Assembly: GCF_026151205.1 (NCBI RefSeq) | Contig: NC_087081.1 | Coordinates: forward strand, 17,027,058-17,091,057 | Source: Bolinopsis microptera | Lineage: Eukaryota; Ctenophora; Tentaculata; Lobata; Bolinopsidae | Reading direction: 5' to 3' | DNA: 64,000 nucleotides | Shown: one piece after another, positions 3,216 through 61,200 of the stretch | How positions within the stretch are numbered: the stretch's first letter is position 1 | Layout: every line of letters begins with the position of its first letter | Translations under genes and position numbers: made by a program | The notes under the pieces: generated by a model | Database searches by the model: none | Seen by the model: only the letters and a program-made list of their open reading frames with translations | Told to the model about the DNA's origin: nothing

Positions 3216-3480
3216 GTTACCTGGTATTCAATCTCTAACTCTCTGAGTTCCAAGGTTACTATGGTTATTATGGTTACTATAGTTACTATGGTTACTAGAG
3301 AGGTTGCCAGAATAGTAGTAATAATGAGTTACCTGGTATTCAATCTCTAGCTCTCTGAGTTCCAAGGTTACTATGGTTACTATGGTTACTATAGTTACTA
3401 TGGTTACTAGAGAGGTTGCCAGAATAGTAGTAGTAATGAGTTACCTGGTATTCAATCTCTAGCTCTCTGAGTTCCAAGGT
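3216..3480 (-). repeat. donor-anchored large repeat at e21 (about 110-bp unit, 3 copies)
   Basis: Three copies of a unit holding the e21 end (GAACTCAGAGAG... to TACCAG) plus GTAACTCATTA and nested GGTTACTAT repeats. Two extra copies of the donor therefore lie in the intron. Confidence 0.85.
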
Positions 3481-3507
3481 TAGATCTAAACTGAATATGT
3501 CCTTGAC
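3445..3507 (-). CDS. TBC1D1/4-like exon e21 (after TBC)
   Basis: 63 bp, TTCCAG| to TACCAG|GTAACT, phase 0/0, reading [20 protein letters not shown] then Q, which matches the E-x-E-Y end of the domain. Last exon I can support; its donor side is copied twice more in 3216-3444. Confidence 0.8.
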
Positions 3508-6500
3508 CTGGAAAAAGTAAAATAGTGTTGTTGTAAAACGTTACTACTAAGACAGGACTATATAAATGTTAATATTGAAGCAGTATTCCTGCACCCCTGG
3601 CAGATATAATAATTCAACATTTTGTAAGACAAATTACCCTGTATTCAAAAGAAGCGTCTATTTTCTGCGGTATTGTTTCTTTCATGTAGTTCATCAAAAC
3701 CTCAAAGTTCTTCAGGGACAATATCTCTGCCTCCGACGCGTCCAGAGTGTACAAAATCACCTGAGATAATTCCAGTATCATTTATCAAGTATATTATAAT
3801 GATGGGCGATGGAACACAGTAAAGTACCGGAATATGTAGGTTAAGAAAACGGAATATAAATTATAACTATATGAATGTTATTGAATATAAGCATGAACAC
3901 ACTATTACCTGTAACTTAATAACTTACTTATTTTCGGATAGGAGGACAGACCATGTTATTTGATTTAAAATCGTAGTTTGTATAGTAGTAATCGTATAGT
4001 AGTTTGTATTCTGAATCAGCAGGATGGACTGGGATTAAATCATCACACAGTGAAAATCAGTGGTAGAAACTTGGTTTGGTTTTTTTACATATAAAACTAA
4101 TCAGAAAATTGCGATAAATTTAATTAATCTGGTAAAATTAACATAAATAAATCGCCAGATAACCCTGTTATAAACCGTATTAATTATTATTGAGGTGAGC
4201 TCTTCTAAATCGGCATTTACAAGCGCAGATATAAAACCACACTGATGAGATAATGAAAGGTGAACACAAAATGTACCTTAAATAGAGCATCGATACCCTG
4301 AAGGAAAATGAAGTCCATAATACGTAGACAGATGGCGAAGGGGAGTTGGGCGGAGAATGCTGTCATGATCCACGAAACAGCGTACAGAGACGGTGTTACC
4401 TAGGGTAGTAACCAATAGTTACCTAGCGTAGTAACCAATAGTTACCTAGGGTAGTAACCAGTAGTTACCTAGGGTAGTAACCAATAGTTACCTAGGGTAG
4501 TAACCAATAGTTACCTAGGGTAGTAACCAGTAGTTACCTGGGGTAGTAACCAATAGTTACCTAGGGTAGTAACCAATAGTTACCTAGGGTAGTAACTAAT
4601 AGTTACCTAAGGTAGTAAACATAGTTACCTAGAGTAGTAACTACCTTATCGAAACTTATTTGAACGGACATGAATTGGACGATAGAGCCTTGAGGCCCTA
4701 GCGTTCATTTAAATGTCCGTTCATTTAAATGTTTGTTCATGTTAATGTCCGATAAGGTAAACAAACCTCATGTGTGTTTAGATGCTCGTGGATACTGAAA
4801 TGTAAACAAACCTCATGTGTGTTAAGATGCTCGTGGATACTGAAATAAACAAACCTCATGTGTGTTTAGATGCTCGTGGATAAGGTAAACAAACCTCATG
4901 TGTGTTTAGATGCTCGTGGATAAGGTAAACAAACCTCATGTGTGTTTAGATGCTCGTGGATAAGGTAAACAAACCTCATGTGTGTTGAGATGCTCGTGGA
5001 TAAGGTAAACAAACCTCATGTGTGTTGAGATGCTCGTGGATACTGAAATGTCTGTCGTGAACCAATCTGGATAGCTGATACAACCTGACGAGAATAATAA
5101 TAAATATACCAGTTTCTTATTGGCAGTGCCCAATCTGGATAGCTGATACAACCTGACGAGAATAATAATAAATATACCAGTTTCTTATTGGCAGTAGCTG
5201 GACAGCTGATACAACCTGATGAGAATAATAATAAATATACCAGTTTCTTATTGGCAGTGCAATCTGGATAGCTGATACAACCTGACGAGAATCATAATAA
5301 ATATACCAGTTTCTTATTGGTAGTAGCTGGACAGCTGATACAACCTGATGAGAATAATAATAAATATACCAGTTTCTTATTGGTAGTAGCTGGACAGCTG
5401 ATACAACCTGATGAGAATAATAATAAATATACCAGTTTCTTATTGGTAGTAGCTGGACAGCTGATACAACCTGATGAGAATCATAATAAATATACCAGTT
5501 TCTTATTGGTAGTAGCTGGACAGCTGATACAACCTGATGAGAATAATAATAAATATACCAGTTTCTTATTGGCAGTGCAATCTGGATAGCTGATACAACC
5601 TGATGAGAATAATAATAAATATACCAGTTTCTTATTGGCAGTGCTGATACAACCTGATGAGAATAATAATAAATATACCAGAGTCTTATTGGTAGTGCCC
5701 ACGTCATGAGATTCTTATTTACTACTACTATTACTATTTAAAAGTCCGAATCACATGTCAAAATGAGTAGTTGACAACGAAAAACTAGAAATCTGAGGTA
5801 AGTGAAGTAGTAAACATCTAAGCTACACCCCTTACCAACCTTAGTTCGAGCCCTGACATTAAACACCTGCACCAGGCACCTCTCTAAGCTACACCCATTA
5901 CCTACCTTAGTTTGAGCCCTGACATTAAACACCTGCACCAGGCACCTCTCTAAACTACACCCATTACCTACCTTAGTTTGAGCCCTGACATTAAACACCT
6001 GCACCCCTCTAAGCTACACCCATTACCAACCTTAGTTTGAGCCCTGACATTAAACACCTGCACCAGGCACCTCTCTAAGCTACACCCATTACCTACCTTA
6101 GTTTGAGCCCTGACATTAAACACCTGCACCCCTCTAAGCTACACCCATTACCAACCTTAGTTTGAGCCCTGACATTAAACACCTGCACCAGGCACCTCTC
6201 TAAGCTACACCCATTACCAACCTTAGTTTGAGCCCTGACATTAAACACCTGCACCAGTCACCTCTCTAAGCTACACCCATTACCAACCTTAGTTTGAGCC
6301 CTGACATTAAACACCTGCACCCCTCTAAGCTACACCCATTACCAACCTTAGTTTGAGCCCTGACATTAAACACCTGCACCCCTCTAAGCTACACCCATTA
6401 CCAACCTTAGTTTGAGCCCTGACATTAAACACCTGCACCAGGCACTTCTCTAAGCTACACCTATTACCTACCTTAGTTTGAGCCCTGACATTAAACACCT

Positions 6501-9500
6501 GCACCTCTCTAAGCTACACCTATTACCTACCTTAGTTTGAGCCCTGACATTAAACACCTGCACCAGGCACCTCTCTAAACTACACCCATTACCAACCTTA
6601 GTTTGAGCCCTGACATTAAACACCTGCACCAGTCACCTCTCTAAGCTACATCCATTACCAACCTTAGTTTGAGCCCTGACATTAAACACCTGCACCAGGC
6701 ACCTCTCTAAGCTACACCCATTACCTACCTTAGTTTGAGCCCTGACATTAAACACCTGCACCCCTCTAAGCTACACCCATTACCAACCTTAGTTTGAGCC
6801 CTGACATTAAACACCTGCACCAGTCACCTCTCTAAGCTACACCCATTACCAACCTTAGTTTGAGCCCTGACATTAAACACCTGCACCAGGCACCTCTCTA
6901 AGCTACACCCATTACCTACCTTAGTTTGAGCCCTGACATTAAACACCTGCACCCCTCTAAGCTACACCCATTACCAACCTTAGTTTGAGCCCTGACATTA
7001 AACACCTGCACCAGGCACCTCTCTAAGCTACACCCATTACCAACCTTAGTTTGAGCCCTGACATTAAACACCTGCACCAGGCACCTCTCTAAGCTACACC
7101 CATTACCAACCTTAGTTTGAGCCCTGACATTAAACACCTGCACCAGGCACCCCTCTAAGCTACACCCATTACCAACCTTAGTTTGAGCCCTGGCATTAAA
7201 CACCTGCACCAGGCACCTCTCTAAGCTACACCTATTACCTACCTTAGTTTGAGCCCTGACATTAAACACCTGCACCTCTCTAAGCTACACCTATTACCTA
7301 CCTTAGTTTGAGCCCTGACATTAAACACCTGCACCAGGCACCTCTCTAAACTACACCCATTACCAACCTTAGTTTGAGCCCTGACATTAAACACCTGCAC
7401 CCCTCTAAGCTACACCTATTACCTACCTTAGTTTGAGCCCTGACATTAAACACCTGCACCAGGCACCTCTCTAAACTACACCCATTACCAACCTTAGTTT
7501 GAGCCCTGACATTAAACACCTGCACCCCTCTAAGCTACACCTATTACCTACCTTAGTTTGAGCCCTGACATTAAACACCTGCACCCCTCTAAGCTACACC
7601 CATTACCAACCTTAGTTTGAGCCCTGACATTAAACACCTGCACCAGGCACCTCTCTAAGCTACACCCATTACCAACCTTAGTTTGAGCCCTGACATTAAA
7701 CACCTGCACCAGGCACCTCTCTAAGCTACACCTATTACCTACCTTAGTTTGAGCCCTGACATTAAACACCTGCACCAGGCACCTCTCTAAGCTACACCCA
7801 TTACCAACCTTAGTTTGAGCCCTGACATTAAACACCTGCACCAGGCACCTCTCTAAGCTACACCCATTACCAACCTTAGTTTGAGCCCTGACATTAAACA
7901 CCTGCACCCCTCTAAGCTACACCCATTACCAACCTTAGTTTGAGCCCTGACATTAAACACCTGCACCCCTCTAAGCTACACCCATTACCAACCTTAGTTT
8001 GAGCCCTGACATATGCGGTTTGTAAACGTCCCTCAGACCATATCTTGTGAGTAGGTCTTTAAACAGGATAAATGCTTCTTCCTCCTCGTCTTTCTGTAAA
8101 ATATCACTGTTTAGTGTTTCTATTTCTATTCAGTATTTCTTTTTTTGTTTCTGTTTAGTGTCTCTGTTAAGTGTTTCTGTTTCTGTTTAGTGCTTAGTTT
8201 TTCTTTTTCCGTTTCTGATTAGTGTTTTTGTTTAGTGTTTCTGTTTCTGATTCTGTTTAATTTTTCGTTTTTCTATTTCTGTTTCTGCTTCCGTTTTTGT
8301 TTCTGTTTAGTGTCTCTGTTTCCGTTTCCGTTTCTGTTTCTTGTTTCTGTTTTTGTTTCTTGTTTCTGTTTCTGTTTCTGTTTCTGTTTCTGTTTATGTT
8401 TATGTTTATGTTTAGTGTTTATTGTTTAGTTTTTCTGTTTCTATTTTGTTTTTGTTTCTTGTTTCTGTTTCTGTTTCTGTTTCTGTTTATGTTTATGTTT
8501 AGTGTTTATTGTTTAGTTTTTCTGTTTCTATTTCTGTTTTGGTTTCTGCTTTTGTTTCTGGATAATTCAAAACTTCTGATTCAAAATCCATATATGTAAG
8601 TATGTATTACCTGATGAGTATTAAAGCACAATTAAAAACGAGACCGGCCAAGAAACCAACTCAAAAAATAAAATAGAATGAGACCGGCCAAGAAAACAAC
8701 TTACAAAATAAAATAGAATGAGACCAGCCAAGAAACCAACTCACAAAATAAGATAGAATGAGACCGGCCAAGAAGCCAATGCCCTGACAGTACCCAACAG
8801 CGCTGTCGAAGGTGCTGTAAGCTAGCAGGACGTTACACAGGGACATCTGACCTTGTCCCAATTCCTCCCGGTAATACGCATGCGTCGGAAACGTTCTCCC
8901 TGGAGGTAAATCTAGGTTAAATAGGGCTGAGTTATTAATCACATTCTGAAATTATTACCAACCAGAAACTGAGGTTGTAACTGTTCGTGATACAGTAACC
9001 CTCCTGAAATTTGCTCTGGAATTTGGTGGAAATGGAATATAGTACTGAAATAATCTTACGGTCTTAAATAAGAATGGTGCTCACCAATATCAAGCAGGAC
9101 AGCGTCTCTGATAAGGGGTTCAGCTCCTTCTACTAACTGTGAGTAGTGGAGGGAGGAGGACAGAGGTTCATCTTTACACTTTTACCTGGTTACCTGGTTA
9201 CCTGGTTACCTGGTTACCTGGTTACCTACCAATATCAAGCAGGACAGCGTCTCTGATAAGAGGTTCAGCTCCTTCTACTAACTGTGAGTAGTGGAGGGAG
9301 GATGACAGAGGTTCATCTTTACACTTTCTCATCTGGGACAGAGTCTGCCACACACGTCCCCGAACTGAGTCCGGTACTCCTGTGGAAAGCTTAGGTCAGG
9401 GACGGGAGAGGGAATGGGAGTTGGAGGAAGGAACTGCATATCAGGGATCGGAGAGAGTAGGTCAGATCGGAGAGGGAGGGGGAGGGGGAGTGGGAGGAGG

Positions 9501-9740
9501 GAACTGCACATCAGGGATCGGAGAGAGGGTGGGAGAGGGAGGGGGAGAGGGAGGAGGAAACTGCACATCAGGGATCGAAGTGAGGGGTGGCGAAGTGAGG
9601 GGGAGTGCACGCCAGAGGTGGGGTTGATGGGGACTGCAAATCGGTCCACAAGTGTTGTTTTGAAATATTAATTTAAATCAGGTATTAGCATGATGAGCTG
9701 ACTCCAAGTAATTAATACTACTAGTACTACTGTTAGCAAG

Positions 9741-9772
<32 letters not shown>

Positions 9773-12700
9773 GTACTACTGTAAGCAAGTACTAATACTA
9801 CTACTACTACTAGTACTATTAGTACTATTGTTAGCAATCTAAGTAAACTATAGGTAAAAATATAATATTAATCATAAGCTAAAATGTACTAATCTTTGTA
9901 TTCTTAATGGGGAAAAAGAAGAAACATTGTCAGTCAGTCGAGAAAATTGTCAGTCAGGCTATATGGCAGCTTTGTAGATGTTGTGACTATGCTAGTAGTG
10001 GTCCCAGGCTTGCGACTGGAATTGCGGTGTTAAATCGATTTAATGGTACCAACGATCCACCTCCCACTTGTTGTTTGGTACTTAGCATTAATAGTGTTAG
10101 CTGTAGCCATTTATAGCAAGAATCTTACTACTACTACTACTACTACTAGTACTATTAGTACTATTGTTAGCAAACCTGCGAAGACAGCAGCCTCAATGTC
10201 TCGTCTGCAGGAGTCTAGGTTGGGGCTCTGTTCCTGTCTGGTTAACAAGGTCTCCCAGTGTTTCAGCTGCGTTACATCTCGAGCTGTCACTACATCAAAA
10301 CCTTATAAAGTTAATGTAACATGTCAGGTATTATAACATGTCAGGTATTATAACGTTTTTATTTTAGCTATCATCCTATGTGTTACTCTGAGTCATGCTC
10401 TTGTCTTTTTAGGAGGAGTTACCATAACACGTGTACACACTACACTACTGTCTACTACACTGGCACACTGTCACACTGGCAACACTTACCTGTACTGTCA
10501 TACTGGCACACTGGCAACACTTACCTGTACTGTCACACTGGCAACACTTACCTGTACTGTCACACTGGCAACACTTACCTGTACTGTCACACTGGCAACA
10601 CTTACCTGTACTGTCACACTGGCAACACTTACCTGTACTGTCACACTGGCAACACTTACCTGTACTGTCACACTGGCAACACTTACCTGTACTGTCACAC
10701 TGGCAACACTTACCTGTACTGTCACACTGGCAACACTTACCTGTACTGTCATACTGGCACACTGGCAACACTTACCTGTACTGTCACACTGGCAACACTT
10801 ACCTGTACTGTCACACTGGCAACACTTACCTGTACTGGCACACTGGCAACACTTACCTGTACTGTCACACTGGCAACACTAACCTGTACTGTCTACTACA
10901 CTGGCAACACTTACCTGTACTGGCACACTGGCAACACTAACCTGTACTGTCACACTGGCAACACTTACCTGTACTGTCACACTGGCAACACTTACCTGTA
11001 CTGTCACACTGGCAACACTTACCTGTACTGTCACACTGGCAACACTTACCTGTACTGTCACACTGGCAACACTTACCTGTACTGTCACACTGGCAACACT
11101 TACCTGTACTGTCACACTGGCAACACTTACCTGTACTGTCACACTGGCAACACTTACCTGTACTGGCACACTGGCAACACTTACCTGTACTGTCACACTG
11201 GCAACACTTACCTGTACTGTCACACTGGCAACACTTACCTGTACTGTCACACTGGCAACACTTACCTGTACTGTCACACTGGCAACACTTACCTGTACTG
11301 GCACACTGGCAACACTTACCTGTACTGGCACACTGGCAACACTTACCTGTACTGTCACACTGGCAACACTTACCTGTACTGTCACACTGGCAACACTTAC
11401 CTGTACTGGCACACTGGCAACACTAACCTGTACTGGCACACTGGCAACACTTACCTGTACTGTCACACTGGCAACACTTACCTGTACTGTCACACTGGCA
11501 ACACTTACCTGTACTGTCACACTGGCAACACTTACCTGTACTGTCACACTGGCAACACTTACCTGTACTGTCACACTGGCAACACTTACCTGTACTGGCA
11601 CACTGGCAACACTTACCTGTACTGTCACTAATGATGGTAGACAAGTGAGGTTCCTCTACACTGTGACGAGATACGATACCCTCTGAAAAGCAAGTTATGT
11701 TATGATACGATACCCTCTGAAAAGCAAGTTATGTTATCTACGATACCCTCTGAAAAGCAAGTTATGTTATCCGAATTCTGCTAGCCAAGTAATCAGTAGA
11801 ATATCGGGGGGGGGGGGGGGGGGGGGAGTAGAATATGATAAGTTCGCAAAATTCGGAAAAATAACGGAACTTCTAACTAGACGACGGAATAACAATTCCG
11901 GAAGAATTAAAGCTGTCTAACCCGAACTATAATAAACTATAATAAAGTAAAGTAACCTATTCTACTGCTGTGTCCCGTAGAGTGCACACTCTCGTATATA
12001 GCTTTCCTTACAGACGACTTCTGCCTCCTCCCCAACCTTCTGTCCTGCGCGGTCATCAGCACGTGCTACACAGGGGGGGGGGTCACAACACACAAGCATA
12101 TTATACAACAGACACTTTAACAGTTACACACAAACATATTATATATAAAGGATTATCTCTCAAATGATCAAGACTCCATAGGAAACTGACCCTCAGAAGT
12201 CAAGTAATGATCGTTTCTAAAAGCTTGGGTAAGCTAAAATTGTCTACGCGCCAATAATGATGACAGCCTGCTGTTATGAACATCAGACTCTTTAAGGGGG
12301 CATACCCCAAATCTGTCCAGACCTACTGACCTCATAGGCAGTTCAGTGACCTTCTAGCGCACCGTTTCCACACCAAGAAAAATTATTTTGAGAATTCCCA
12401 TTTTTGTAATCGAGCATTTCCTGGTTAAGAGTGCAATTTTCGGAAAATATTATTTTGTGGTTGAGACGCTATAAGTTAATTATTTCTTGCGGTATCAGGT
12501 TGAAATTTTGCTCGCCGTTTATTCACATCTATGTCAAGGTGTGTGTAAAATCTTGATATCGTATCTAAAAAGGCTGGTGTGTTATGATTTTTTTTGGTTT
12601 GCAGATAAAAAAAATCACATTTTCTCCCATAACTTCAAAGGGAAGCATTTTAGGGTGTTTTGTTGTTCATAACTTATATATAAATGTGCTAGTTGCGGTT

Positions 12701-15700
12701 ATTTTGCACCCTTCAAAAAGTCACTAGCACATTCCTATCAAAATTTTAGAAAAATCAGTAAATATTAAAAACGAAAAATGTGCCTAAATTTGTTGTTTGG
12801 CTTTGAGGTCCAATAGATCAGAAGGTGAATGAGTAAAAACATTTTTGAGGGCATCAAAAACTGCGCCAGAATTCAGAGAACAATTTGATGTCAAGCATCA
12901 AATAATCCGATCTTCCCTGACTGACTTTTTGTTAAAATAAGCCTGAAAAGGACAATTTTAGCTTTTTGACTTTAAAAATTCATAACACACCAGCCTTTTT
13001 AGATACGATATCAAGATTTTACACACACCTTGACATAGATGTGAATAAACGGCGAGCAAAATTTCAACCCGATATGGCAAGAAATAATTAACTTATAGCG
13101 TCTCAACCACAAAATAATATTTTCCGAAAATTGCACTCTTAACCAGGAAATGCTCGATTACAAAAATGGGAATTCTCCAAATAATTTTTTTTGGTGTGGA
13201 AACGGTGCGCTAGAAGGTCACTGAACTGCCTATGAGGTCATTTGGTCTGGACGGCACAAACCACTGTTTTGGGGGTATGCCCCCTTAATATGCTGCAGGA
13301 TATAAGGACATGATGATTAAAACATTATAACGGATTACCCTTTGTTCCTCACCTGATGAAGGGGCGGTTCAACAGGGATGGTCACTGCACGATTCCTCTT
13401 TTCTCCCGTGTACTCCTTCTGAGGTAAGTGAAGCTTGTCATAAGGGGGGTAATAACCTGTTAATAAGAAAATTGCAAAATCATATTGTCTCAAATTCTGT
13501 CCCATTTTCAGTTTTTATCCAGGACCGAAATTGTACAGTTTTGACATTTTCAGATATGACAATTTTCTCCCGCACATTTGCAGATTGGATGAAATTTTTG
13601 CCCCAAACAAAAATAGTCAGTTAATTGATGATGGTATGAAACCAAAATTGGGGTACTGGAAGTCTCAAAATCTCGAAAAAAAAATAGGAAAATCATACTG
13701 TCCCATACTTGTCCCCATTTTCCAGTTTTTGGAGCTGAATATTCCCCAGGCCGGAAAAATTTTCCATGTTTCGGCCGAATTCTGACCTGCAACCAAATAG
13801 TCACGTAACTATAGATGCCAAATGACACGATTGAGGTGCTGGAAGTTTGATTCGGGTGGTCGGAAGAAGCTCACAGCAGAAATCTTAACAAACAAAAAAA
13901 AAAAACGAAAAGTTGATTTCAAACTCTGTCCATTTTCAGATATGAAAAGTTCTGAACGGCACATTTGACGATTGGATGAAATTTTAGCCCACAAACCAAT
14001 TAAGTCAGTTAATTGATGATGGTATGAAACCAAATTGGGTACAGGAAGTCCAAATCTCGAAAAAAATTGGAAAATCATAACTGTCCCATACTCTGACCCC
14101 TTTTCAGTTTTTGGAGCTGAAAATTTCCAGGCCGAAATTTTACAGTTTCGGCCGCCGAATTTCTGACCTGCATCCAATTAGTCGTCACTATAGATGCCAA
14201 ATGACACGATTGAGGTGCTGGAAGTTTGATTTCGGGTCGGAAGAGCTCACAGCAGAAATCTTACAAAACGAAAAAGTTGTATTATCAAAACTCTGTTCCC
14301 ATTTTCAGATATGAAATTTTGAACGCCACAGTTGACAGTTTGGTATGAATTTTTTGCCACAAACCAATTAGTAAGTTAAATTGATGGTATGAAACCAACC
14401 ATTGGGTACTGGAAGTAAAACTCGAAAAAATTGGAAAATCATACTGTCCCTACTCTGTCCATTCGTTCAGTTTGGAGCTGAAATTTCCAGGGCATAAATT
14501 TTACAGTTTCGGCCGAAATTCTGACCTGCAACCAATTGTCATCACTATAGATGCCAAATGAACGATTGAGGTGCTGGAGTTTGATTCGGTCGGAGGAAGC
14601 TCACAGCAGAAATCTTAACAAAAACGAAAGTTGTATTTTTCAAAACTTTGTCCCATTTCCAGATATGGACCAAGTTTCTCAACGCACATTTGAACCAGAT
14701 TGGATGAAATTTTTGCCCACAAACCAAATTGTCAGTTAATTGATGATGGTATGAAACCAAATTTGGGGTACTGGAAAGTCAAAATCTCGATAAATAATTG
14801 GAAAATCATACTGGCCCTTACTCTTGTCCATTTTGCAGTTTTTGGAGAGCTGAATTTCCAGGGCGAAATTTACAGTTTCCGGCCAAATTTCTGACTGCAA
14901 CCAATTAGTCAGTCAATATAGATGCAAATGACACGATTGCAGTGCTGGAAGTTTGATTCGGGTCGGAGACGCTCACAGCAGAAATCTTAACAGAGACAAG
15001 TTGTATTTTCAAACTCTGTCCATTTTCAGATATGACAAATTTCTCAACGCACATTTGACAGCTTGGATGAAATTTTTTAAGCCCACAAACCAAATAGTCA
15101 GTTAATTGATGGTATTGAAAACCAAAAAATTGGGAACTGCGAAGTCAAAATCTCGCAAAAATTGGAAAATCATACGTCCATTACTTGTTCCCATTTTCAG
15201 TTTTTGGAGCTGAAATTTCCAGGGCATAAATTTTACAGTTTCGGCCGAAATTCTGACCTGCAACCAATTAGTCAGTCAACTCGTAGATTGCAAATGGACA
15301 CGGATTGAGGTGATGGAAGTTTGATTGGGTCGGAGGAAGCTCAACAGCAGAAATTTAACAAAACGAAAAGTTGTATTTTCAAAAACTTTGTCCCATTTTT
15401 CAGCTATGAAAAATTTCTCAACGCACATTTGACAGATTGGATGAAATTTTTGCCACAAACCAAATAGTCAGTTAATTGATGAGGTATGAACCTAATTGGG
15501 GTCTGGAAGTCAAATCTCGAAAAAAAATTGGAAAATCATTATATGGGTCATTTTACTCTGTTCCATTTTCAGTTTTTGGAGCTGAAATTTCCAAGGGCCG
15601 AAATTTTTACAGTTTCGGCCAAATTTCTGACCTGCAACCATTAGTCAGTCAATATAGATGCCAAATGACACGTGAAGTGTGGAAGTTTGATTGGGTCGGA

Positions 15701-18700
15701 GGAAGCTCACAGCCGAACTTTAACAAGACGAAAAGTTGTATTTTCCACAACCTCTGTCCCATTTTCAGATATGACAATTTCACGCACATTTGACCGATTG
15801 GATGAATTTTTACCCACAAACCAATTAGTCGTTAATTGATGGTATGAAAACAAATTGGGGGACTGGAAGTCAAAATCTCGAAAAAAAATTGGAAATATAC
15901 TGTTCCCAACTCTGTCCCATTTTCAGTTTTGGAGCTTAAAATATCCAGGGCCGAATTTTTACAGTTTGGCCGAAAATTCTGACCTGCAACCAATTAGTCA
16001 GTCAACTCTAGATGCCAAAATGACACCGGGGGGAGTTTTGGAAGGTTTTTTGCTGGACGTTGTGATCCGGGTCGGGAGGAAGCTCACCGCAGAAATCTTA
16101 ACAAACCGAAAAGTTGTATTTTCAAAACTTGTCATTTTCGATATGAAAATTCTCAACGCACATTTGACAGATTGGATGATATTTTGCCACAAACCAATTA
16201 GTCAGTTAATTGATGATTGGTATGGAACACCAAATTGGGGTACTGGAAGTCAAATCTCGAAAAAATTGGAAAATCCTACTGTCCCTACTCTGTCCCAGTT
16301 CAGTTTTTGGAGCTGAATTTCCAGGGCCGAATTTACAGTTTCTGCCGAAATTCAGACCGCAACAATTAGTAGTCACACTATAGGTGCCAAATGACACGAT
16401 TTAGGTGCTGGAATGTTTGATTCGGGTCGGAGGAAGTCACAGCAGAAATCTAACAAAACGAAAGTTGTATTTCAAAACTTTGTTCCCATGTTCAGATTCG
16501 ACAATTTCTCAACGCACATTTGACAGATTGGATGAAAATTTTAGCCCACAAACCAATTAGTCAGTTAATTGATGATGGTATGAAAACAAGTGGGGTACTG
16601 GAAGTCACACTCTCGAAAAAAATTGGAAAATCATATGTCCCATACTCTGTCCCATTTTCAGTTTTTGGAGCTGAAATTTCCAGGGCCGAAATTTTACATT
16701 TCCTGCCGATTTCTGACCTGCAACCAATTAGTCAGTTCACTATAGATTGCCAATGAACACGATGTGGTGCTGGAAGTTTGATTCGGGTCGGAAGAAGCCT
16801 CACAGCAGAAATCTTAACAAACGAAAAGTTTGTATTTCAAAAACTCTGTCCCATTTTCAGATAAGGAAAATTCTCAACGCACATTGACTGATTGGATGAA
16901 ATTTTTGCCCACAAACCAATAGTCGTTAATGCTGATGGTATGAAACCAAATTGGGGTACTGGAAGTCAAAAATCTCGAAAAAAATTGGAAAATCATACTG
17001 TCCCATACTCTGTCCATTTTAGTTTTAGAGCTTGAAAATTTCCAGGGCGAAATTTTACAGATTCGGCCGAATATCCTGCCTGCACCTATTAGTCAGTCAA
17101 CTATAGCTGCCCAAATGACACGATTGAGGAGCTGGAAGTTTGATTCGGGTCCGGAGAAGCTCACAGCAGAAATCTTAACAAAACGAAAAAGTTGTATTAT
17201 CCAAAATCTGTCCCATTTTCTGATATGAAAATTTCTGAAACGGCACATTTGGGACAATTGGATGAAATTTTTGCCCACAAACAAAATAGTCAGTTAAATT
17301 GAGATGGTATGACAAAACCAACTGGGGTACTGGAAGTCAAACTCTCGAAAAACCTTGGAATTTCTACAGTCCCATACTCTGTCCCATTTCCGTTTTTGGA
17401 GCTGAATTCCCAGAGGCATAAATTATACAGTTTCGGCGAAATTCTGACCTGCACACCAATTAGTCAGTCACGATAGATGCCAAATGGACACGATGAGGGT
17501 GCTGGACGTTTGATTCGGGTCGGAGGAAGCTCACAGCAGAATTCTTACCAAAAACGAAAAGTTGTATTTTCAAAAACTTTGTTCCCCATTTTCAGATCTG
17601 CAATTTCTCAACGCACATTAGACAGATTGGATGAAATTTTAGCCCACACAACCAAATAGTCAGTTAATTGATGATGGTTATGAAACCAAATTGGTGTACT
17701 GGAAGTCAAAATCTCGAAAAAAATTGGAAAATCATACTGTCCATACTCTGTCCCATTTACAGTTTTTGGAGCTGAATTTCAGAGCCGAAATTTTTACAGT
17801 TCGGCCCAAAATATCTGAACTTGCAACCAAATAGTCAGTCAACTATAGAAGCCAAATGACCACGATTGAATGCTGGACGTTTGCTTCGGGTCGGAGGAAG
17901 CTCACAGCAGAAAATCTTAACAAGACGAAAAGTTGTATTTTCAAAACACTGTCCCATTTCAGATAAGACAATTTTCAAACCCCCCCCCCACACATTTGAC
18001 AGATTGGATGCACCCCCCCCCCCCCACCCCCCCCCCCTGCCCCCCCCCCCCTCCCCACCCCCCCCCCCCCCACCCCCCCCCATCGTCCCCCACACACCAA
18101 TTAGTCAGTTACTTGATGGTATGAAACCAAATAGGGGTCCTGGACGTCACACTATCTCCGAAAAAACAAATTGGAAACTCATACTGTCCATACTCTGTCC
18201 CATTTTCAGTTTTTGGAGCTGAAATTTCCAGGGCCGACATTTTACAGTCTTCGGCCGGAATTTCTGACTGCAACCAATTATGTCCGTCAACTATAGATGC
18301 CAATGAAACACGCTTGAGGTGCTGGAAGTTTTAATCTCGGGTCGGAGAAGCTCAACAGGCAGAAATCTTAACAAACGAAAAGTTGTTTTTCAAAACTCTG
18401 TCCCATTTCATATATGAAAATTTCTGAACGTACATTTGACAGATTGGATGAAATTTTGCCCACAAAACAATTAGTCAGTTAATGATGGTATGAAACAAAT
18501 TGGGGTACTGCGAAGTCAAACATCTCGAAAAAATTTGGAAAATCATACTGCTCCCATACTCTGTCCCATTTTCAGTTTTTGGAGCTGAAATTTCCAGGGC
18601 ATAAATTTTTACGTTTCGGCGAATTTGGACCTGCAACCAATTAGACAGTCAACTATAGATGCCAAATGACACGATTGAGGTGCTGGAAGTTGTTGATTCG

Positions 18701-44245: not shown

Positions 44246-44276
<31 letters not shown>

Positions 44277-47200: not shown

Positions 47201-50200
47201 ATCATCCGATTTAACATTAGAATATTAACTAAACCCCCCTCAACATTATAATATTAACTAAACCCCCCTCAGCACCTACAACTCTACTTCTGGCTGGTCT
47301 GTGCCCTCTTCTATCTCCCCTACATGGTGGGAATCTGTCTGGGTTTCAACTACACTAAGCCTATAGTAAACCTCCTCCACGACCCTCTCACACGTGATGA
47401 CGAGGAACTGGACGCTCTCCTCGACAAGGCTGCGCGCTCTCTTAGACACAGATTCGATATATACAGCGACCACCACAAGTCCTGGTTTAACACACTCTAC
47501 AGCAGGCACACCCTGCTCTACCTCCTCTTCTTTATCAAACTCCAGTACCTCGCTTTCTCAGTAGCTATCCTGGGGTTAACCCACGCTAAATTCAAGATAG
47601 GTAGTTTCCTAACGTATGGGTTTGAGTGGGCGGGTAGTGGTCCCACTAATGGCACCTACACTCTGATACAGCACAAGCTGTTCCCTAAAATGACAGCATG
47701 TGAGATTAGGAGATGGGGAGCTACAGGACTGGATGTTGTGAGGGGGATGTGTGTGCTACCTCAGAACGTCTCTAACTCTTATATCTTCCTGGTATTCTGG
47801 GTGTTCCTTGTGATCACTATACTGGGTAATATAATAGGGTGTATCCTGGCTGTGAAGCAGTATCTGGTGAAGAGTGAGGGGTATGGTAAACTGGTGAACT
47901 GTACTTTCTGGAATGATTGGAATCTCAGACATTTGTATTGGCACGTGGGCGGGTCAGGGCGCGTGGTCCTGCATCACCTGGCTGATAATCTCCACCCCTG
48001 TACTTTTGAGAAACTCATAAGGAGGTACTGGTGGTTGAAACGCAACGAGTTTGTTCAATATAATGGACATTTAAAAACTTCATAGGTTATATTAGAAGTT
48101 ATCAGGACATCCTCGGATGTTTTAGGGTACTCTAGAATCTACAGTATAGATTTTAGTATAATAAGATGTTATCTAGTTCATTAAACTGTGTATTTACACA
48201 CTACACTTACACAATACACTATTACACACTACACTATTATACACTACTAGTATAACTTTAGTACGCTCAATTTCACCTATTTTTAAGGGGTAGGACGTTT
48301 TTACAAATTTGATATTTTCATATGCTCGTGACAGCTGTTACATAGCGTTATATTACACAGCTTAGTGTAACACTGGTCACTGTGGCGTAGTGTAACACTG
48401 GTCACTGTGGCTTAGTGTAACACTGGTCACTGTAGCTTAGTGTAACACTGGTCACTGTGGCTTAGTGTAACACTGGTCACTGTGGCTTAGTGTAACACTG
48501 GTCACTGTGGCTTAGTGTTACACTGGTCACTGTGGCTTAGTGTTACACTGGTCACTGTGGCTTAGTGTAACACTGGCCACTGTGGCTTAGTGTAACACTG
48601 GTCACTGTGGCTTAGTGTTACACTGGTCACTGTGGCTTAGTGTTACACTGGTCACTGTAGCTTAGTGTTACACTGGTCACTGTAGCTTAGTGTAACACTG
48701 GTCACTGTGGCTTAGTGTTACACTGGTCACTGTGGCTTAGTGTTACACTGGTCACTGTGGCTTAGTGTTACACTGGTCACTGTAGCTTAGTGTTACACTG
48801 GTCACTGTAGCTTAGTGTTACACTGGTCACTGTAGCTTAGTGTAACACTGGTCACTGTGGCTTAGTGTTACACTGGTCACTGTGGCTTAGTGTTAGACTG
48901 GTCACTGTGGCTTAGTGTTACACTGGTCACTGTAGCTTAGTGTTACACTGGTCACTGTAGCTTAGTGTTACACTGGTCACTGTGGCTTAGTGTTACACTG
49001 GTCACTGTAGCTTAGTGTTACACTGGTCACTGTAGCTTAGTGTAACACTGGTCACTGTGGCTTAGTGTTACACTGGTCACTGTGGCTTAGTGTAACACTG
49101 GTCACTGTGGCTTAGTGTAACACTGGTCACTGTGGCTTAGTGTAACACTGGTCACTGTGGCTTAGTGTTACACTGGTCACTGTGGCTTAGTGTAACACTG
49201 GTCACTGTGGCTTAGTGTAACACTGGTCACTGTGGCTTAGTGTAACACTGGTCACTGTGGCTTAGTGTAACACTGGCCACTGTGGCTTAGTGTTACACTG
49301 GTCACTGTGGCTTAGTGTTAAACTGGTCACTGTGGCTTAGTGTAACACTGGTCACTGTGGCTTAGTGTTACACTGGTCACTGTAGCTTAGTGTAACACTG
49401 GTCACTGTGGCTTAGTGTTACACTGGTCACTGTGGCTTAGTGTAACACTAGCCACTGTGGCTTAGTGTAACACTAGCCACTGTGCAGTGTGGCTCTTCTT
49501 ATGCCAGAGCCACCTATCTCAGCTGTGGGAAGTGAAATTAATGACCGTGAACCAGTGTTGTTTGGGTCAAATTGAAATGAATTACGAGATTATCAGAGTT
49601 TTAGTTTTAAAATAGTGTTAAGAAAAGTAAATACATTGTACTCAGAAGATGAGACTGCTTGCGAGACGCTCGCTTTTAGGCGCTAAACAAGTCTGTTTTA
49701 AAGTTGGATTTCACAAGATAAACATTTGTTGTCCGTGTTTTGAGAATTGAGAGGGGTACACACGTGACAGAAGTGGACACTAGTTCAACTAGCACCATTA
49801 TTAATGTGCTTACCTGGGCACAAGCTTTCACATTCTTGATAGTAATTTACCTGGGCACAAGCTTTCACATTCTTGATAGTAATTTACCTGGGCACAAGCC
49901 TTTACATTCTTGATGGGCCATGTTCTTATGACGGTGACGTGGTCCATGTTTAGAAGCTGCACTTCGTTGTATCCGATATGTAGCATTCCCTTTATACTGG
50001 AGCTCAGATCTGGGAAATAGTGTGGTGAGCATTCCCTTTATACTGGAGCTCAGATCTGGGAAATAATGTGGTGAGCATTCCCTTTATACTGGAGCTCAGA
50101 TCTGGGAAATAGTGTGGTGAGCATTCCCTTTATACTGGAGCTCAGATCTGGGAAATAGTGTGGTGAGCATTCCCTTTATACTGGAGCTCAGATCTAGGAA

Positions 50201-52259
50201 ATAGTGTGGTGAGTATTCCCTTTATACTGGAGCTCAGATCTGGGAAATAGTGTGGTGAGCATTCCCTTTATACTGGAGCTCAGATCTGGGAAATAGTGTA
50301 GTGAGCATTCCCTTTATATTGGAGCTCAGATCTGGGAAATAATGTGGTGAGCATTCCCTTTATATTGGAGCTCAGATCTGGGAAATAGTGTAGTGAGCAT
50401 TCCCTTTATACTGGAGCTCAGATCTGGGAAATAGTGTGGTGAGCATTCCCTTTATACTGGAGCTCAGATCTGGGAAATAGTGTGGTGAGCATTCCCTTAT
50501 ACTGGAGCTCAGATCTGGGAAATAGTGTGGTGAGCATTCCCTTTATACTGGAGCTCAGATCTGGGAAATAGTGTGGTGAGCATTCCCTTTATACTGGAGC
50601 TCAGATCTGGGAAATAGTGTGGTGAGCATTCCCTTTATACTGGAGCTCATATCTGGGAAATAGTGTGGTGAGCATTCCCTTTATACTGGAGTTCAGATCT
50701 GGGAAATAGTGTGGTGAGCATTCCCTTTATACTGGAGCTCAGATCTAGGAAATAGTGTGGTGAGCATTCCCTTTATACTGGAGCTCAGATCTGGGAAATA
50801 GTGTGGTGAGCATTCCCTTTATACTGGAGCTCAGATCTGGGAAATAGTGTGGTGAGCATTCCCTTTATACTGGAGCTCAGATCTGGGAAATAGTGTGGTG
50901 AGCATTCCCTTTATACTGGAGCTCAGATCTGGGAAATAGTGTGGTGAGCATTCCCTTTATACTGGAGCTCAGATCTGGGAAATAGTGTGGTGAGCATTCC
51001 CTTTATACTGGAGCTCAGATCTGGGAAATAGTGTAGTGAGCATTCCCTTTATACTGGAGCTCAGATCTGGGAAATAGTGTGGTGAGCATTCCCTTTATAC
51101 TAGAGCTCAGATCTGGGAAATAGTGTGGTGAGAATTCCCTTTATACTGGAGCTTAGATCTGGGGAATAGTGTGGTGAGCATTCCCTTTATACTGGAGCTC
51201 AGATCTGGGAAATAGTGTGGTGAGCATTCCCTTTATACTGGAGCTCAGATCTGGGAAATAGTGTGGTGAGCATTCCCTTTATACTGGAGCTCAGATCTGG
51301 GAAATAGTGTGGTGAGCATTCCCTTTATACTGGAGCTCAGATCTGGGAAATAGTGTGGTGAGCATTCCCTTTATACTGGAGCTCAGATCTGGGAAATAGT
51401 GTGGTGAGCATTCCCTTTATACTGGAGCTCAGATCTGGGAAATAGTGTGGTGAGCATTCCCTTTATAGTGGAGCTCAGATCTGGGGAATAGTGTAGTGAG
51501 CATTCCCTTTATACTGGAGCTCAGATCTGGGAAATAGTGTGGTGAGCATTCCCTTTATACTGGAGCTCAGATCTGGGAAATAGTGTAGTGAGCATTCCCT
51601 TTATACTGGAGCTCAGATCTGGGAAATAGTGTGGTGAGCATTCCCTTTATACTGGAGCTCAGATCTGGGAAATAGTGTGGTGAGCATTCCCTTTATACTG
51701 GAACTCAGATCTGGGAAATAATGTGGTGATAATTCTGAAATATTCCTTAACGTGCGCCGTATTAAAAAATAATCAAAGCTCGATTGAAGAAAGTGTGATC
51801 TAGAAAGAAAGTGTGATCTAGAAAGATAATAGCAGGGGTTTCTAGAAAGATCCGTGCAGATTAGAAGTTAATGTTATATGACAATTGTTCTGAACGTTTA
51901 TTTGAGCACTCTTATTTATTAACGAGCAATAACACGTGTGCTTGTCGGACAATTTGTATAATTGTATCATTCCATATTAAGTCATGTGTTCTGGAAAATT
52001 TTGTTAACAACTACTGAATTATTGAATTACATGACAGAATAGAGGCGACATTGTTTTATTTATCTTAAAAATTGCTAGAGTCCGGTGTCCCTAAGGAAAC
52101 CAGATAAAGTCTGTATCTGATCCCCCGACCAGATACAGACTTTGGGACAATATTCGGTGTACATCATTGATATTATCGATTTAGATTTATATTTGATAAC
52201 ATTTTAATATCAGACTTCGTGAAACGACAATAAAGACTCGAGGACAAACTGAATATCCG

Positions 52260-52290
<31 letters not shown>

Positions 52291-55200
52291 AGTAACCTTG
52301 GTCTTGTCTATTTCTCTGTATTTCCTTCACAGTCTTGTCAATATCTGGCAACTGCGAACTCTCCGTCTCAATCAGCCCGATGTACTCGACCTGGAAAAAG
52401 TATTTTTATACGAAGCAAAATGTCCCTGTGCGTGCCGGCGTTAATGGATTAACAAAGGAAAAGTGAAAGTTTAACCCGTGCCTACGGCCGGGACTTCACT
52501 ATCGCACTGCAGTATCGCGGTTGAAAATGAAATGCAAAAGTATAAACCCGCCTATTAGTATTATACAGGGTGGGCCAAAAGTCACTTGACATACGTTGGC
52601 CTTAATAGCTCAGTCACTGAGTGACCAATTGAAATAATTCTTAATCTGGTACGACTTATTACCACCACTGGTTCGAGAAATTTGTCAAATCGAAAAATAT
52701 TCGAGTTCATTTGTTTCAAATGAACTCGAATAATAGCAAATCTGTTATGAGGGGAGAGAGAAAGAGAGCGACAGTGGGAGAGTACACACACACCCACCCA
52801 CTCAACCACCAACCCACCCACTCACCCACCCACCCACCCACACATCGACGGATGTTACTCGTCTAAATTTCTTCGAAGTAGCGCGCGCCGCTTTCTTCTC
52901 GAAATGTTGTTCTTCTCGAAATGTTGCCGGATGGCAAGTGCTACGAAATAGCGCGCGCCGGGCCAGATCATTAACAATGGTCAAACCCACACACAAAAAT
53001 CTTGAGAATATTAGTATTGATGATACTAATTATTGAGATTATAATGTAAACAATAAAGTAAAATACCCTCGTATAATTTACATACTTTGTATGTCAGGAC
53101 GATCTCTACTCCAAGTATACACTAATGACTGATCACTGCGTTTAGCCTGATTTAAGGATGTGTAATGTAGGTACTCACAAGGCTCGAGCCTACTATTATA
53201 CTATACTAGTGTACTTACAGCTTGTGTAACTCTTGTGTGTTATTTATCCAGGTAACCTGTATTACTCGTTACCTAGTTAGTATACATATTACATAGCCCA
53301 CTGTCTTTCTCTACACCAGTTGTTGTTGGTTGATCCTAACCGGATTGGCATTAACGCTTTAAAATTACATATAAGGATATTAACAGTGAATAATTATATG
53401 AAAAAATTGTCCAGTGCTGCACGCCGCCGTTTTTTTTCAAAACGGCGGCGGCGTGGTTAAAATCGGCGGCGGCGGCGTAATCGGCGTGAGGTCACGCGTA
53501 TAAACAGGTTCACGCCGTTTGAAAACGGCGGCGGCGTGGCCGGGAAATCATCAGCGGCGGCGGCGGCGTTCGGCGGCGGCGTGCAGCACTGAAATTGTCA
53601 AAGATAGTTGCAAAAACAGTTTTGTCCGACACTTCCCATGGCAGTAGATATAGATATGATATGATGAGGTCTCACCAAACATAATCTCATTTCTTACTCA
53701 CATACTTGGCTGAAGAATCATGATAAAAATAATGCGAGGGGGTGTTTTGTATACATGGGAATGGTCTGATTGCAGTTCTCTTTCTCTTTTTATCAGTGCA
53801 ACTGCAAAAGATTTTATTTCAGTTTTTTTATTTTTTATTTTCACAGTTTCCGAACTGAGTCTACTGTAGTCTGATCAGTTCCTTTTTGTTTGAAATCTGG
53901 TCTGACTTAAACTTGTACATCTCAGCCACCGCTGTTGTTCTGGAACATTGTTAGAAACATCTGACGTTGGTTAGCTAGTACTTCCTTATTAAGCAGCTGA
54001 TGAGATACTACTAATACTAGTGAATTCACTTCCTCATACAGAGACCCCACATAAAGCTACAGACTACAAGTTACAGGCTACAGCCGTCTCGCACAAAGCT
54101 GATAACAAGAACTAATAAAACGTTGCGTAACGGAAAATGTTAACTCGGGTATACTTTCCTCTATACTCTTCAGTTAAAAGTTATTAATCTATTAAGAGAA
54201 TTAGTTTTACTTTCCTCTATACTCTTCAGTTAAAAGTTATTAATCTATTAAGAGGTTATACTTTCCTCTATACTCTTCAGTTAAAAGTTATTAATCTATT
54301 AAGAGAATTAGTTTTGCTACAACAAACGAGAGGCAGGTCTTTCCCGCAAGTTGGGATGGCCTGAGGTGCTTATCTCCTTTTCAGTAACCCTGTGCCGAGG
54401 CACTATACTAGCTGTAGGGGGGTTAGTCCTACGAGCCAGAGGGTGTGTATCACCAGCCGAAGCTGTACCAAATCACAGCTTGGTAACTGGCCGACTTGCA
54501 ACCAACCGGATTTGAACCCGGGCCTTCTGCTTGGGAGGCGATCGTGTTTCTAGTACAGCTTAATAGTTAATACTTATTCTAATATATTTATTTACCGCCC
54601 ACCAAAAGGAATGTTAATATTACTTCCTACATGTGCTTGAGACTACTACAACTTAGTATTAACACTAGAATGGAGACTACTAGTTCCTAGTATTTTGTAA
54701 CTAGTGGCTACACCTTAGTATTAACACAGCAAGGTCCCAGATTTGTTTGTTCTCAACCCGTCACAATATTCCCCATGTCTCGATCGTGTGTACACACTAG
54801 TATTAAGGTATTACACTACGAATAACACCGCTTATGCAATACTTCTCAATTAATTTGTTTTCAGTCTTTGTTTTTTAATGTATTTATTTCTGATCCGTCG
54901 TTAGTTTAGAAAGTCTTGAGACTGTCTTTCTTAAGGTATAATTGCTTTCAGGTACATCAGTAACCCTGTATAGTGTATAGTACAGTATAGTATGTTGGTA
55001 TGTAGATCAAGTAATACTCCTCTCTCTCTATCTATTATCTCAAGTAATTATCATTTTCAAAAGCTCATTGTACTCCCAATCGAAGATAGCACATTTGAAT
55101 TGTTTTTTAATTTAAATATAAAATGCTGAATAAATTTACTTCTCACTAATTTAGTACAAATCAGCACAAGTCAGCCCGCTATAGTTACTAAAGTTACAAG

Positions 55201-58200: not shown

Positions 58201-61200
58201 CTAAGCTCACCACCTAAACGTTAGTTTCACTAAGCTCACCACCTAAACGTTAGTTTCACTAAGCTTACCACCTAAAATTTAGTTTCATTAAGCTCACCAC
58301 CTAAACGTTAGTTTCATTAAGCTTACCACCTAAACGTTAGTTTCATTAAGCTCACCACCTAAACTTTAGTTTCACTAAGCTCACCACCTAAACGTTAGTT
58401 TCACTAAGCTCACCAGTTGGAAACAGTTCACACTCACAGTCTCACATGGGGCCCTCTTAATTAGAGTAAACCAAAACAATTGCTTATTCTTCTATCAATG
58501 CTATTATATCCTTAGTACTAGTAGTACATCCTATAACTGTAATTTTACTCGACAGGTACCTGCACACATCACAAACAGAGACGTCGCTCTAACATGGTCA
58601 AATCAGCGGTGAAACTCAGCTCCGGACAAACCATCCCTCGTAGAGTCGACCACAACAAACTCAGTGTTATACACGACCCCCACCCACTTGGAGACAGTAG
58701 AAAGGGGCGAGTAGAGGACAGGGGAGTAGATGACAGGGGAGTAGAGGACAGGGGAGTAGAGGACAGGGGAGTAGAGGACAGGGGAGTAGAGGACAGGGGA
58801 GTAGAGGACAGGGGAGTAGAGGACAGGGGAGCAGAGGACAGAGGAGTAGAGGACAGGGGAGTAGAGAACAGGGGAGTAGAGGACAGGGGAGTGTACGAGG
58901 TGGAGATGCTACCAGGCGATACTGAGGATCATTACCAGAAACTTATCAGTAAAAAAGAGGAGGAGAGCGAAAGTATTGCGGAGGTTAGTACTATATCAGA
59001 GGTAGTTGTGACGTTAGGAAGTTAGCACTATAGTATTAATTGTGAGATAAAACAGAAACAGAAACAGAAACAGAAACAGAAACAGAAACAGAAAGTATTG
59101 CGGAGGTTAGTACTATATCAGAGGTAGTTGTGACGTTAGGAAGTTAATACTATAGTATTAATTGTGAGATAAAACAGAAACTTAACTTATTAACGGGATC
59201 GTTCTTACTGTATTGAATTAACCTATCTGACAAAATATTTTTAATCAGAAATTGTATTTTTAAAAGATATCATATTATCGAAATTTGGATATGTTAAAAT
59301 CTTGTGAAATGGTTTCAATAATTCGACCTATTTCGAAGACATTTGAAAGCAGAGATTTACAAGGTTTGTTGTCAGGTTAGCTGTAAAAGAAGTTTTTGAA
59401 ACTAACTATCAGCAAATTTAATAAAACTGTTCAATTTATATAGTTTTATTTATATATCTGTTCTTATATTTTTGAATTTATTATCGAGTGTATTATTGAA
59501 GCCGAGAAAATGCCACGTATGGTTTGGTTGCGCTGGTTCATTTAGCAAAGTCCGAAAATCATAAAAATACACGATCATGGCCTCTTATCTGTATAGTATA
59601 TAAATATAGTACTGTGTACGAACGCATACTGTATTTCATGACAAGAGAAATGTGCGCGCGCCGATAAACCATGAGGCTGCGCGAAGAACACTACAAAACT
59701 AACTGAAAACGAGCGATAGCTATCATCTGGCGCGTGCTCATATCATGGGCTGCCTGAAAATTGTATCGTTACTAATAAATCCTGCCGGAAACAACACTTT
59801 TTTGGAGCTGTGGTCTTAAAAACCATTTTTAACAACCAACTGTAAAATAATGACTCACATGGTAAATCTCTCTACATTTGATAGGCGTACTTTTCCGGCG
59901 CTGACGGAGTTTAGCATAGTCCGGCTCTGAGCCCCGCTTCTTATCTTCAGAAGATCTCCTGAACTTATCGTCCGGAACCTGGTAATGTTCATTTAGATAT
60001 TTTATTATTATTATATACAGGGTGTTACTTCTGGGCCACCCTGTATATTACTCTTTTATTTTCAACTCTTTTATTTAATTATATTTAGCAATCTGGGAGA
60101 ATCACCCTATCAAACTACCTTCTCAAATCTGAGAACAGAGAACATATTTATTCCTTATACCTTCCTTAGAATCACCCTATTTTAAAAGGAGTCCCCTGAT
60201 TAGAGGGGGAGGGGGTATGTCCCCTAATTAGAGGAGGAGGGGGTATGTCCTCTAATTAGAGGGGGAGGGGTATGTCCCCTAATTAGAGGGGGAGGGGGTA
60301 TGTCCCCTAATTAGAGGGGGAGGGGTATGTCCCCTAATTAGAGGGGGAGGGAGTATGTCCCCTAATTAGAGGGGGAGGGGTGACATGTCCCCTAATTAGA
60401 GGGGGAGGGGTGACATGTCCTCTAATTAGAGGGGGAGGGAGTATGTTCCCTAATTAGAGGGGAGGGGGTATGTCCCCTAATTAGAGAGGGAGGGGGTATG
60501 TCCTCTAATTAGAGGGGGAGGGGTATGTCCCCTAATTAGAGGGGGAGGGAGTATGTCCCCTAATTAGAGGGGGAGGGGGTATGTCCCCTAATTAGAGGGG
60601 GAGGGGGTATGTCCCCGCATTAGAGGGGGGAGTATGTCCCCTCATTAGAGGGGAGGGAGTATGTTCCCTAATTAGAGGGGGAGGGGGTATGTCCCCTAAT
60701 TAGAGGGGGAGGGGGTATGTCCCCTAATTAGAGGGGGAGGGGGTATGTCCCCTAATTAGAGGGGGAGGGAGTATGTCCCCTAATTAGAGGGGGAGGGGGT
60801 ATGTCCCCTAATTAGAGGGGGAGGGAGTATGTCCTCTAATTAGAGGGGGAGGGGTATGTCCCCTAATTAGAGGGGGAAGGAGTATCTCCCCTAATTAGAG
60901 GGGGAGGGGGTATGTCCCCTAATTAGAGGGGGAGGGAGTATGTCCCCTAATTAGAGGGGGAGGGGGTATGTCCCCTAATTAGAGGGGAAGGGGTATGTCC
61001 CCTAATTAGAGGGGGAGGGAGTATGTCCTCTAATTAGAGGGGGAGGGAGTATGTCCCCTAATTAGAGAGGGAGGGAGTATGTCCTCTAATTAGAGGGGGA
61101 GGGGGTATGTCCCCTAATTAGAGGGGGAGGGAGTATGTCCTCTAATTAGAGGAGGAGGGGGTATGTCCCCTAATTAGAGGGGGAGGGAGTATGTCCTCTA

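Follow-up and report, generated by a model that had tools for sequence, protein, structure and literature searches.

Why should the introns of a single locus fill with minisatellites whose repeat unit is a piece of the neighbouring exon together with its splice site? The question is raised by a 64,000-nucleotide stretch of the genome of the ctenophore Bolinopsis microptera (C10:17027058-17091057, here called the window), which carries a TBC1D1/4-like gene on the minus strand and, within one of its introns, an innexin gene on the plus strand. The arrays found there are probably "mirages", that is, minisatellites founded by short local tandem duplications that spanned a splice junction and whose growth was tolerated. 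The exon-most copy is complete, which leaves the coding frame untouched.

The window is array-rich. Tandem Repeats Finder (TRF) returned 91 rows, and arrays with a period of at least 6 cover about 60% of the sequence; coverage in 12 other 10-kb pieces, taken from 60 places drawn on C1-C13 within the first 9.9 Mb, is 0.7-32% each. Each junction was represented by an 18-mer (9 exon and 9 intron bases), copies of which were sought with at most 4 mismatches over 5 kb on each side. Among the 38 junctions tested (32 in the TBC gene and 6 in the innexin), 15 have intron-side copies; one of these, the acceptor at 10301, has a single copy at -3022 and was dropped as a likely chance match. The remaining 14 junctions, 9 donors and 5 acceptors, hold 254 intron-side copies (6-kb span) at tandem spacing, and on the opposite, exon side copies occur at 2 of the 38 junctions, one copy each, 485 and 4,639 bases off. 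The highest counts belong to the 28937 acceptor (55), innexin exon 1 (51), the 11617 donor (41), the 50009 acceptor (37) and the 7993 donor (34), with 1-9 copies at each of the other nine. A cruder test, in which exon ends were locally aligned to 1.5 kb of flank, found copies at 11 of 40 exon ends in the window. Three exons (5084-5015, 50009-49888 and 11682-11617) have arrays at both ends, and the units differ from junction to junction. These counts bear out the original prediction that arrays here are built on splice-junction units; its figure of about 70 decoy sites proves too low as a total.

Most copies keep their splice dinucleotide. With copies taken at up to 5 mismatches, it is intact in 37/37, 53/60, 5/5, 41/41, 34/35, 9/9, 6/6, 10/10 and 51/51 copies of the nine arrays that have at least 5. 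The columns beside the dinucleotides are conserved at 91-100%, and the decoys are thus preserved about as well as the surrounding sequence. Since they are no better kept than their neighbours, recent expansion or homogenisation is favoured over selection on the decoys.

Exon models were built by GT-AG splicing of stretches into a single open frame. The TBC1D1/4-like model has 16 exons (3445..52390) and probably lacks some. Nine of them, from 11682 to 3445, give one spliced frame of 325 residues (one exon end was shifted by 1 base on inspection), which matches TBC1D1 in PDB (3qye, E=1.8e-65, residues 36-324, 289/325) and RabGAP-TBC in Pfam (2e-50), and the upstream exons match a PTB/PID domain (Pfam 1.3e-6, residues 3-126 of 222). 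The innexin has four exons (41061..48085) in a frame open up to its stop codon, and its product matches the Pfam innexin family nearly end to end (2.4e-34). Ten of the 14 mirage junctions (50009, 49888, 9230, 8745, 7993, 5084, 5015, 4399, 3445 and 41208) fall within these homology-matched parts; the other four (28937, 28503, 11682 and 11617) are backed solely by an open frame and splice sites. The putative exon 12065-11957 was included among the 38 junctions and has no copies. The exon numbers first given for this locus fit these models if e21 is 3507-3445, e18 is 5084-5015, e13 is 11682-11617 and e6 is 50009-49888.

A simple history could account for the arrays. The founder would be a local tandem duplication, ~23-145 bp long, in which a splice junction was included by chance, arising perhaps by break repair or replication slippage, and the array would then enlarge by slippage or unequal exchange. 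It could survive since only the exon-adjacent copy needs to be used, the copy that exon definition would favour. Mutation or survival may also have favoured junctions, roughly two-fold.

Does the overlap with junctions exceed chance? A per-base test is of little use with such long arrays, and each array (period at least 8) in 18 introns was instead collapsed to one founder unit, the units then being placed at random. A hit was a founder reaching at least 3 bases into an exon, junction-spanning founders were assumed to be tolerated, and two bodies of long interspersed nuclear elements (LINEs) and the innexin gene were removed from the TBC intron. This null covers 36 junctions; the array at 3209-3482 lies outside it, the next exon being unmodelled. 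Once collapsed, 17 of the 18 introns measure 89-796 bp and the other 2.3 kb; together they sum to 7,485 bases. Twelve of the 33 founders reach an exon against 5.4 expected (P=0.0026, and 0.0022 on a second run), a 2.2-fold excess. If five arrays abutting a junction at a distance of at most 10 bases are counted as well, the total rises to 17 against 7.15 expected (P=0.00005); these five were counted by eye, one (28770-28846) coming from an alternative TRF row, and the exon duplication at 9230 was scored as abutting, its TRF row being the 8-bp filler alone. The window was chosen for its junction arrays, so the founder P is not an unbiased estimate for the genome.

The genome searched for further cases comprised 264,652,675 bases in 232 contigs. 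In a TBC-family gene on C2 (L074, exons matching RabGAP-TBC at 9e-22), two of four junctions carry donor arrays, scored by eye where automatic pairing gave 'none': one is an 89-bp x19 array, the other consists of exon-end copies split by (CACACAATAT)n filler. Two donor octamers are more frequent genome-wide than their reversed forms (AGGTAAGT, 10,758 vs 7,965; AGGTGAGT, 8,474 vs 7,650). Among the first 100 matches listed for each on the C1 plus strand, tandem clusters with a spacing of at most 120 bases number 4 and 3, respectively; the reversed octamer TGAATGGA gave 1 among its first 100 matches listed on both strands. Seven donor clusters in ~5.1 Mb of one strand therefore stand against one TGAATGGA cluster in ~3.1 Mb covered on both strands (hand-calculated P about 0.02), a comparison in which the reversed control was placed for one octamer only and a 35-kb stretch holds three of the seven clusters, all in sushi-like exons.

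The 5' flanks of all seven donor clusters were examined, and four of the clusters adjoin open exons that resemble dynein or sushi sequences. These are an exon similar to dynein heavy chain (L084, PDB E=4.8e-9, no Pfam match at 0.1), a sushi exon (L085, Pfam 8e-7) and two sushi-like exons that fall below the Pfam cut-off (L083, 0.0024; L087, 0.024). L088 has 56 open codons with no Pfam match, and the flanks of L086 and L089 are not clearly coding. L083, L085 and L087 lie within 35 kb and are not independent; L083 and L087, separated by 28 kb on C1, have repeat units of 54 and 34 bp, respectively, at exon ends that resemble each other, and this difference in unit length suggests recurrence. Repeated local tandem duplication across splice sites, enlarging introns, had been proposed from the window, where there are many cases, and it holds for L074, L083-L085 and L087 as well. 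Junction duplication thus recurs, in genes on C1, C2 and C10, and is not universal. As a separate observation, the dynein exon also holds an internal part-exon tandem duplication upstream (L084 1-410).

Several results weigh against the founding of mirages at junctions as a general process. The junction bias in the window is modest, only about two-fold, and about half of the array-junction overlap there can be put down to the shortness of the introns and the heavy load of arrays. Random array units are weakly donor-like (percentile 0.577, P=0.04; AGGT in 14/59 vs 9.4 expected), and a strong donor bias was rejected on these values. For the units of the window the donor-likeness percentile is 0.616 (P=0.019), yet AGGT shows no excess in them (14/44 vs 14.6), and 9 flank arrays show no donor bias (percentile 0.494). 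In expanded arrays the counts for GTAAC (16 vs 7.8) and CAGGT (11 vs 4.8) are raised, and neither is among the top words. The CCT chaperonin genes (PF00118), whose introns are mostly compact, have junction copies at 0 of 26 junctions, a sample in which 13 of 20 exon pairs were resolved and seven dropped (six 'none', one 'gap'). For the TBC family, five regions were taken from 27 matches to PF00566; two genes have copies at 0 of 6 junctions, and two regions gave no resolved exon pairs (C2:5.13 Mb, 'none', and one on C8, where the profile gap was too large). Across both families, exon-end copies occur at 2 of 76 exon ends, both in L074. A universal habit of the genome is rejected by the CCT junctions and the two TBC-family genes, and a general junction bias genome-wide is not demonstrated. 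Which copy is spliced is itself something we infer from the sequence. The idea that duplication starts at splice sites thus survives in part: the excess of founders reaching exons speaks for it, and the number expected by chance and the genes that have no copies speak against.

Some junction copies are separated by simple-repeat filler, namely (TTACCTGG)n at 9230, (GGTTACTAT)n at 3445 and (CACACAATAT)n in L074. The triplet (TTACCTGG)3 has 4,500 overlapping matches genome-wide and 0 when reversed. We aligned the two flanks of (CCAGGTAA)n arrays at 9182-9227 in the window and at 10 other loci (L001, L053-L061). A direct duplication of the flank is clear at 7 of the 11 sites (score 16-93; shuffles at most 12), weak at three (L001, L054 and L057, scores 11-15) and absent at L053. 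The duplicated flanks measure 11-99 bp, and the loci resemble insertions with a variable target duplication. At exon 9379-9230 the duplicated flank is the exon end; at L061 the duplicated sequence is open and exon-like, and neither Pfam nor PDB gave a match for it. These arrangements suggest a common duplication-with-filler event behind some mirages.

An (AAACAG)n array at 59050-59094 likewise has a long direct flank duplication (score 71), laid out like the (CCAGGTAA)n loci. Flank duplication was rejected as a general trait of arrays, 5 of 216 passing; 22 of 600 control positions scored at least 20 in the same test, some of them probably inside arrays. Interstitial (TTAGGG)n is frequent (4,273 overlapping four-unit matches, those listed being all on C1, L077-L082, some beside TCAGGG variant arrays), and no telomere repeats were seen in the contig-end stretches inspected. 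Such arrays were rejected as the same phenomenon: 3 of 6 (TTAGGG)n loci beat their shuffles, by inspection through TCAGGG-type repeats. Introners, which are dispersed intron-making elements, have near-identical sequence across the introns of many genes. They were also rejected, the junction units of the window being mutually different on inspection and the (TTACCTGG)n filler the only widely shared unit noted.

Might junctions themselves be mutational hot spots, at which co-transcriptional breaks or AG/GT microhomology start duplications, sometimes with simple-repeat filler? The two-fold founder excess, the fillers that separate copies at several junctions (9230, 3445 and L074) and the separate arrays at two similar sushi-like exons on C1 are all in keeping with this. 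Yet the majority of sampled genes have no junction arrays, and filler with duplication also occurs where no exon is visible (L055, L056, L058 and L059). We regard hot spots as a live possibility, one we would put at rather less than an even chance. A fuller form of the idea is doubtful: a break-repair process duplicating 10-150 bp would favour splice junctions and often add simple-repeat filler such as (CCAGGTAA)n, itself with a donor-like site; arrays would then be a main route of intron growth, the spliceosome would routinely have to ignore dozens of perfect decoys, and (CCAGGTAA)n arrays between direct duplications would form a separate class of insertion.

Coincidence would need no targeting at all. 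With a high array load and short introns, founders landing at random would sometimes span a junction and be tolerated. The collapsed introns offer few bases per junction, which is why 5.4 of 33 founders are expected in exons, and the CCT genes fit this account too. The founder counts exceed that expectation, however, more so when abutting arrays are included, and donor-octamer clusters outnumber those of the reversed control. Pure coincidence seems to us less likely than not. Selection for the arrays, for example to tune splicing or expression, is very improbable; its sole support is the intact dinucleotides, the neighbouring columns are similarly conserved, as recent expansion or homogenisation predicts, and the units differ among junctions. 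An assembly artefact or faulty exon models would be the least credible account of all: the analysis does rest on one assembly, but both indels and point changes distinguish the copies, the spliced TBC exons give a single frame matching TBC1D1, the innexin matches Pfam almost whole, and most mirage junctions lie within homology matches. Mirages founded by junction-spanning duplication remain the reading we prefer, and their arrays are listed in Table 1 with the exons concerned.

Table 1. Junction-associated arrays and modelled exons in the window (a slash marks the splice junction; copies are intron-side matches to the junction 18-mer).
Feature	Position	Strand	Evidence
112-bp x2.4 array: end of exon 3507-3445 + donor, (GGTTACTAT)n filler	3209-3482	-	TRF; 2 copies; exon within TBC1D1 match
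23-bp x10.8 array at acceptor of exon 4399-4277 (CCCTAG/GTAAC)	4395-4641	-	TRF; 8 copies; AG intact 10/10 at <=5 mismatches
40-bp x7 array: end of exon 5084-5015 + donor	4751-5042	-	TRF; 6 copies
63-bp x10 array: acceptor + start of exon 5084-5015	5067-5696	-	TRF; 9 copies
59-66-bp x34.7 array: last 20 bases of exon 8093-7993 + donor	5817-8012	-	TRF; 34 copies; GT intact 34/35
40-bp x3.5 array: end of exon 8899-8745 + donor	8640-8779	-	TRF; 2 copies
~99 bases (end of exon 9379-9230 + GT) duplicated into intron; (TTACCTGG)n filler 9182-9227 between copies	9083-9326	-	99-bp flank match; 18-mer test; limits by eye
27-bp x42 array: last 11-12 bases of exon 11682-11617 + donor CAG/GTAAGT	10467-11628	-	TRF; 41 copies; GT intact 41/41; exon by open frame only
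33-34-bp x3 array at acceptor of exon 11682-11617	11670-11770	-	TRF; 2 copies; exon by open frame only
57-bp x6 array: end of exon 28613-28503 + donor	28193-28533	-	TRF; 5 copies; exon by open frame only
13-bp repeat adjoining donor of exon 28937-28846, without exon bases	28770-28846	-	one of several overlapping TRF rows; 0 junction copies
67-bp x71 array: acceptor + first ~60 bases of exon 28937-28846	28879-33725	-	TRF; 55 copies (<=4 mismatches); AG intact 53/60 (<=5); exon by open frame only
49-bp x51 array: last 43 bases of innexin exon 1 + donor GCAG/GTAGGA	41166-43666	+	TRF; 51 copies; GT intact 51/51; Pfam innexin
22-bp array starting 5 bases past innexin exon 2 end	44041-44248	+	TRF; 0 junction copies
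29-bp x2 repeat ending at acceptor AG of innexin exon 4, without exon bases	47213-47271	+	TRF; 0 junction copies
37-bp x2.8 array: end of PTB exon 50009-49888 + donor	49810-49914	-	TRF; 1 copy at 18-mer threshold; PID match
46-bp x38 array: acceptor + start of PTB exon 50009-49888	49982-51729	-	TRF; 37 copies; AG intact 37/37
TBC1D1/4-like gene exons, first half	52390-52297, 50009-49888, 34634-34533, 34103-33959, 28937-28846, 28613-28503, 12065-11957, 11682-11617	-	
TBC1D1/4-like gene exons, second half	10301-10176, 9379-9230, 8899-8745, 8093-7993, 5084-5015, 4399-4277, 3760-3638, 3507-3445	-	
Innexin exons 1, 2 and 4	41061-41208, 43902-44036, 47273-48085	+	

Two of the innexin arrays had been singled out beforehand. 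The array said to abut the exon 2 donor is there as described; the doubling reported for the exon 4 acceptor is also present, and the repeat halts at the acceptor AG without taking in exon bases. The 22-bp unit at exon 2 recurs at 46523-46940, beyond an open reading frame (ORF) with RVT and RNase H domains. Two reverse-transcriptase-type ORFs lie on the minus strand (35269-38514 and 44495-46543), one with an endonuclease domain and the other with RNase H, and both lie between two stretches of one tandem array, as if inserted there. A 366-370-bp satellite of ~14.6 kb occupies most of one TBC intron (13545-28158), and a 29-bp x52 array at 56919-58415 marks the site where a putative 'membrane protein exon 2' had been proposed. 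An Rfam search of the window gave no match.

The phenomenon is already known in kind; what is new is its density, its copy number and the phylum. Among the reports listed by a literature search that left out most subscription journals, none described mirages in a ctenophore. Related processes are known in other lineages. In the Rogers model, introns are gained through tandem duplication of an AGGT-containing exon, and the portions of the source available to us give the potato RdRp gene and 24-bp repeats of fission yeast as cases (PMC4974935); there, as here, a tandem duplication carries splice signals, but those events create new introns, whereas here existing introns enlarge. Human segmental duplications have internal tandem repeats at exon-intron boundaries, with units averaging 30 bp x4, which share minisatellite expansion at boundaries with our arrays; as far as the available text of that report goes, they are tied to paralogue variation and novel introns (PMC2812944), in contrast to the large intronic arrays in a conserved gene described here.

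A second animal with dense mirages would make their origin, and the proposed seeding of new introns, statistically testable. Introns with tens of intact, near-identical donors or acceptors are natural experiments on how the spliceosome chooses among equal sites, and junction-copy arrays call for caution in gene prediction.

The closest parallel is amphioxus, and the supposition that such arrays are not a described genome habit has to be withdrawn. According to the accessible parts of the reports, mirages there are minisatellite-like duplications of intron-exon boundaries in Adh3, the globins BflGb6 and BflGb9, troponin C and PGBD5; units of tens to ~160 bp span the 5' and 3' boundaries, and many copies keep AG/GT (PMC3087553, PMC3902484). 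The ctenophore arrays share these traits, with units that span the boundary at 14/38 junctions, both boundary types (9 donors and 5 acceptors) and AG/GT kept in most copies. They differ in scale. The same parts of the amphioxus reports describe few genes and, for example, 3 and 6 repeats in two BflGb6 haplotypes (PMC3087553, PMC3902484), whereas in the window up to 55 copies per junction (18-mer test) occur, 14 of the 38 junctions in two genes are affected, three exons are framed by arrays on both sides, and fillers lie between some of the copies.

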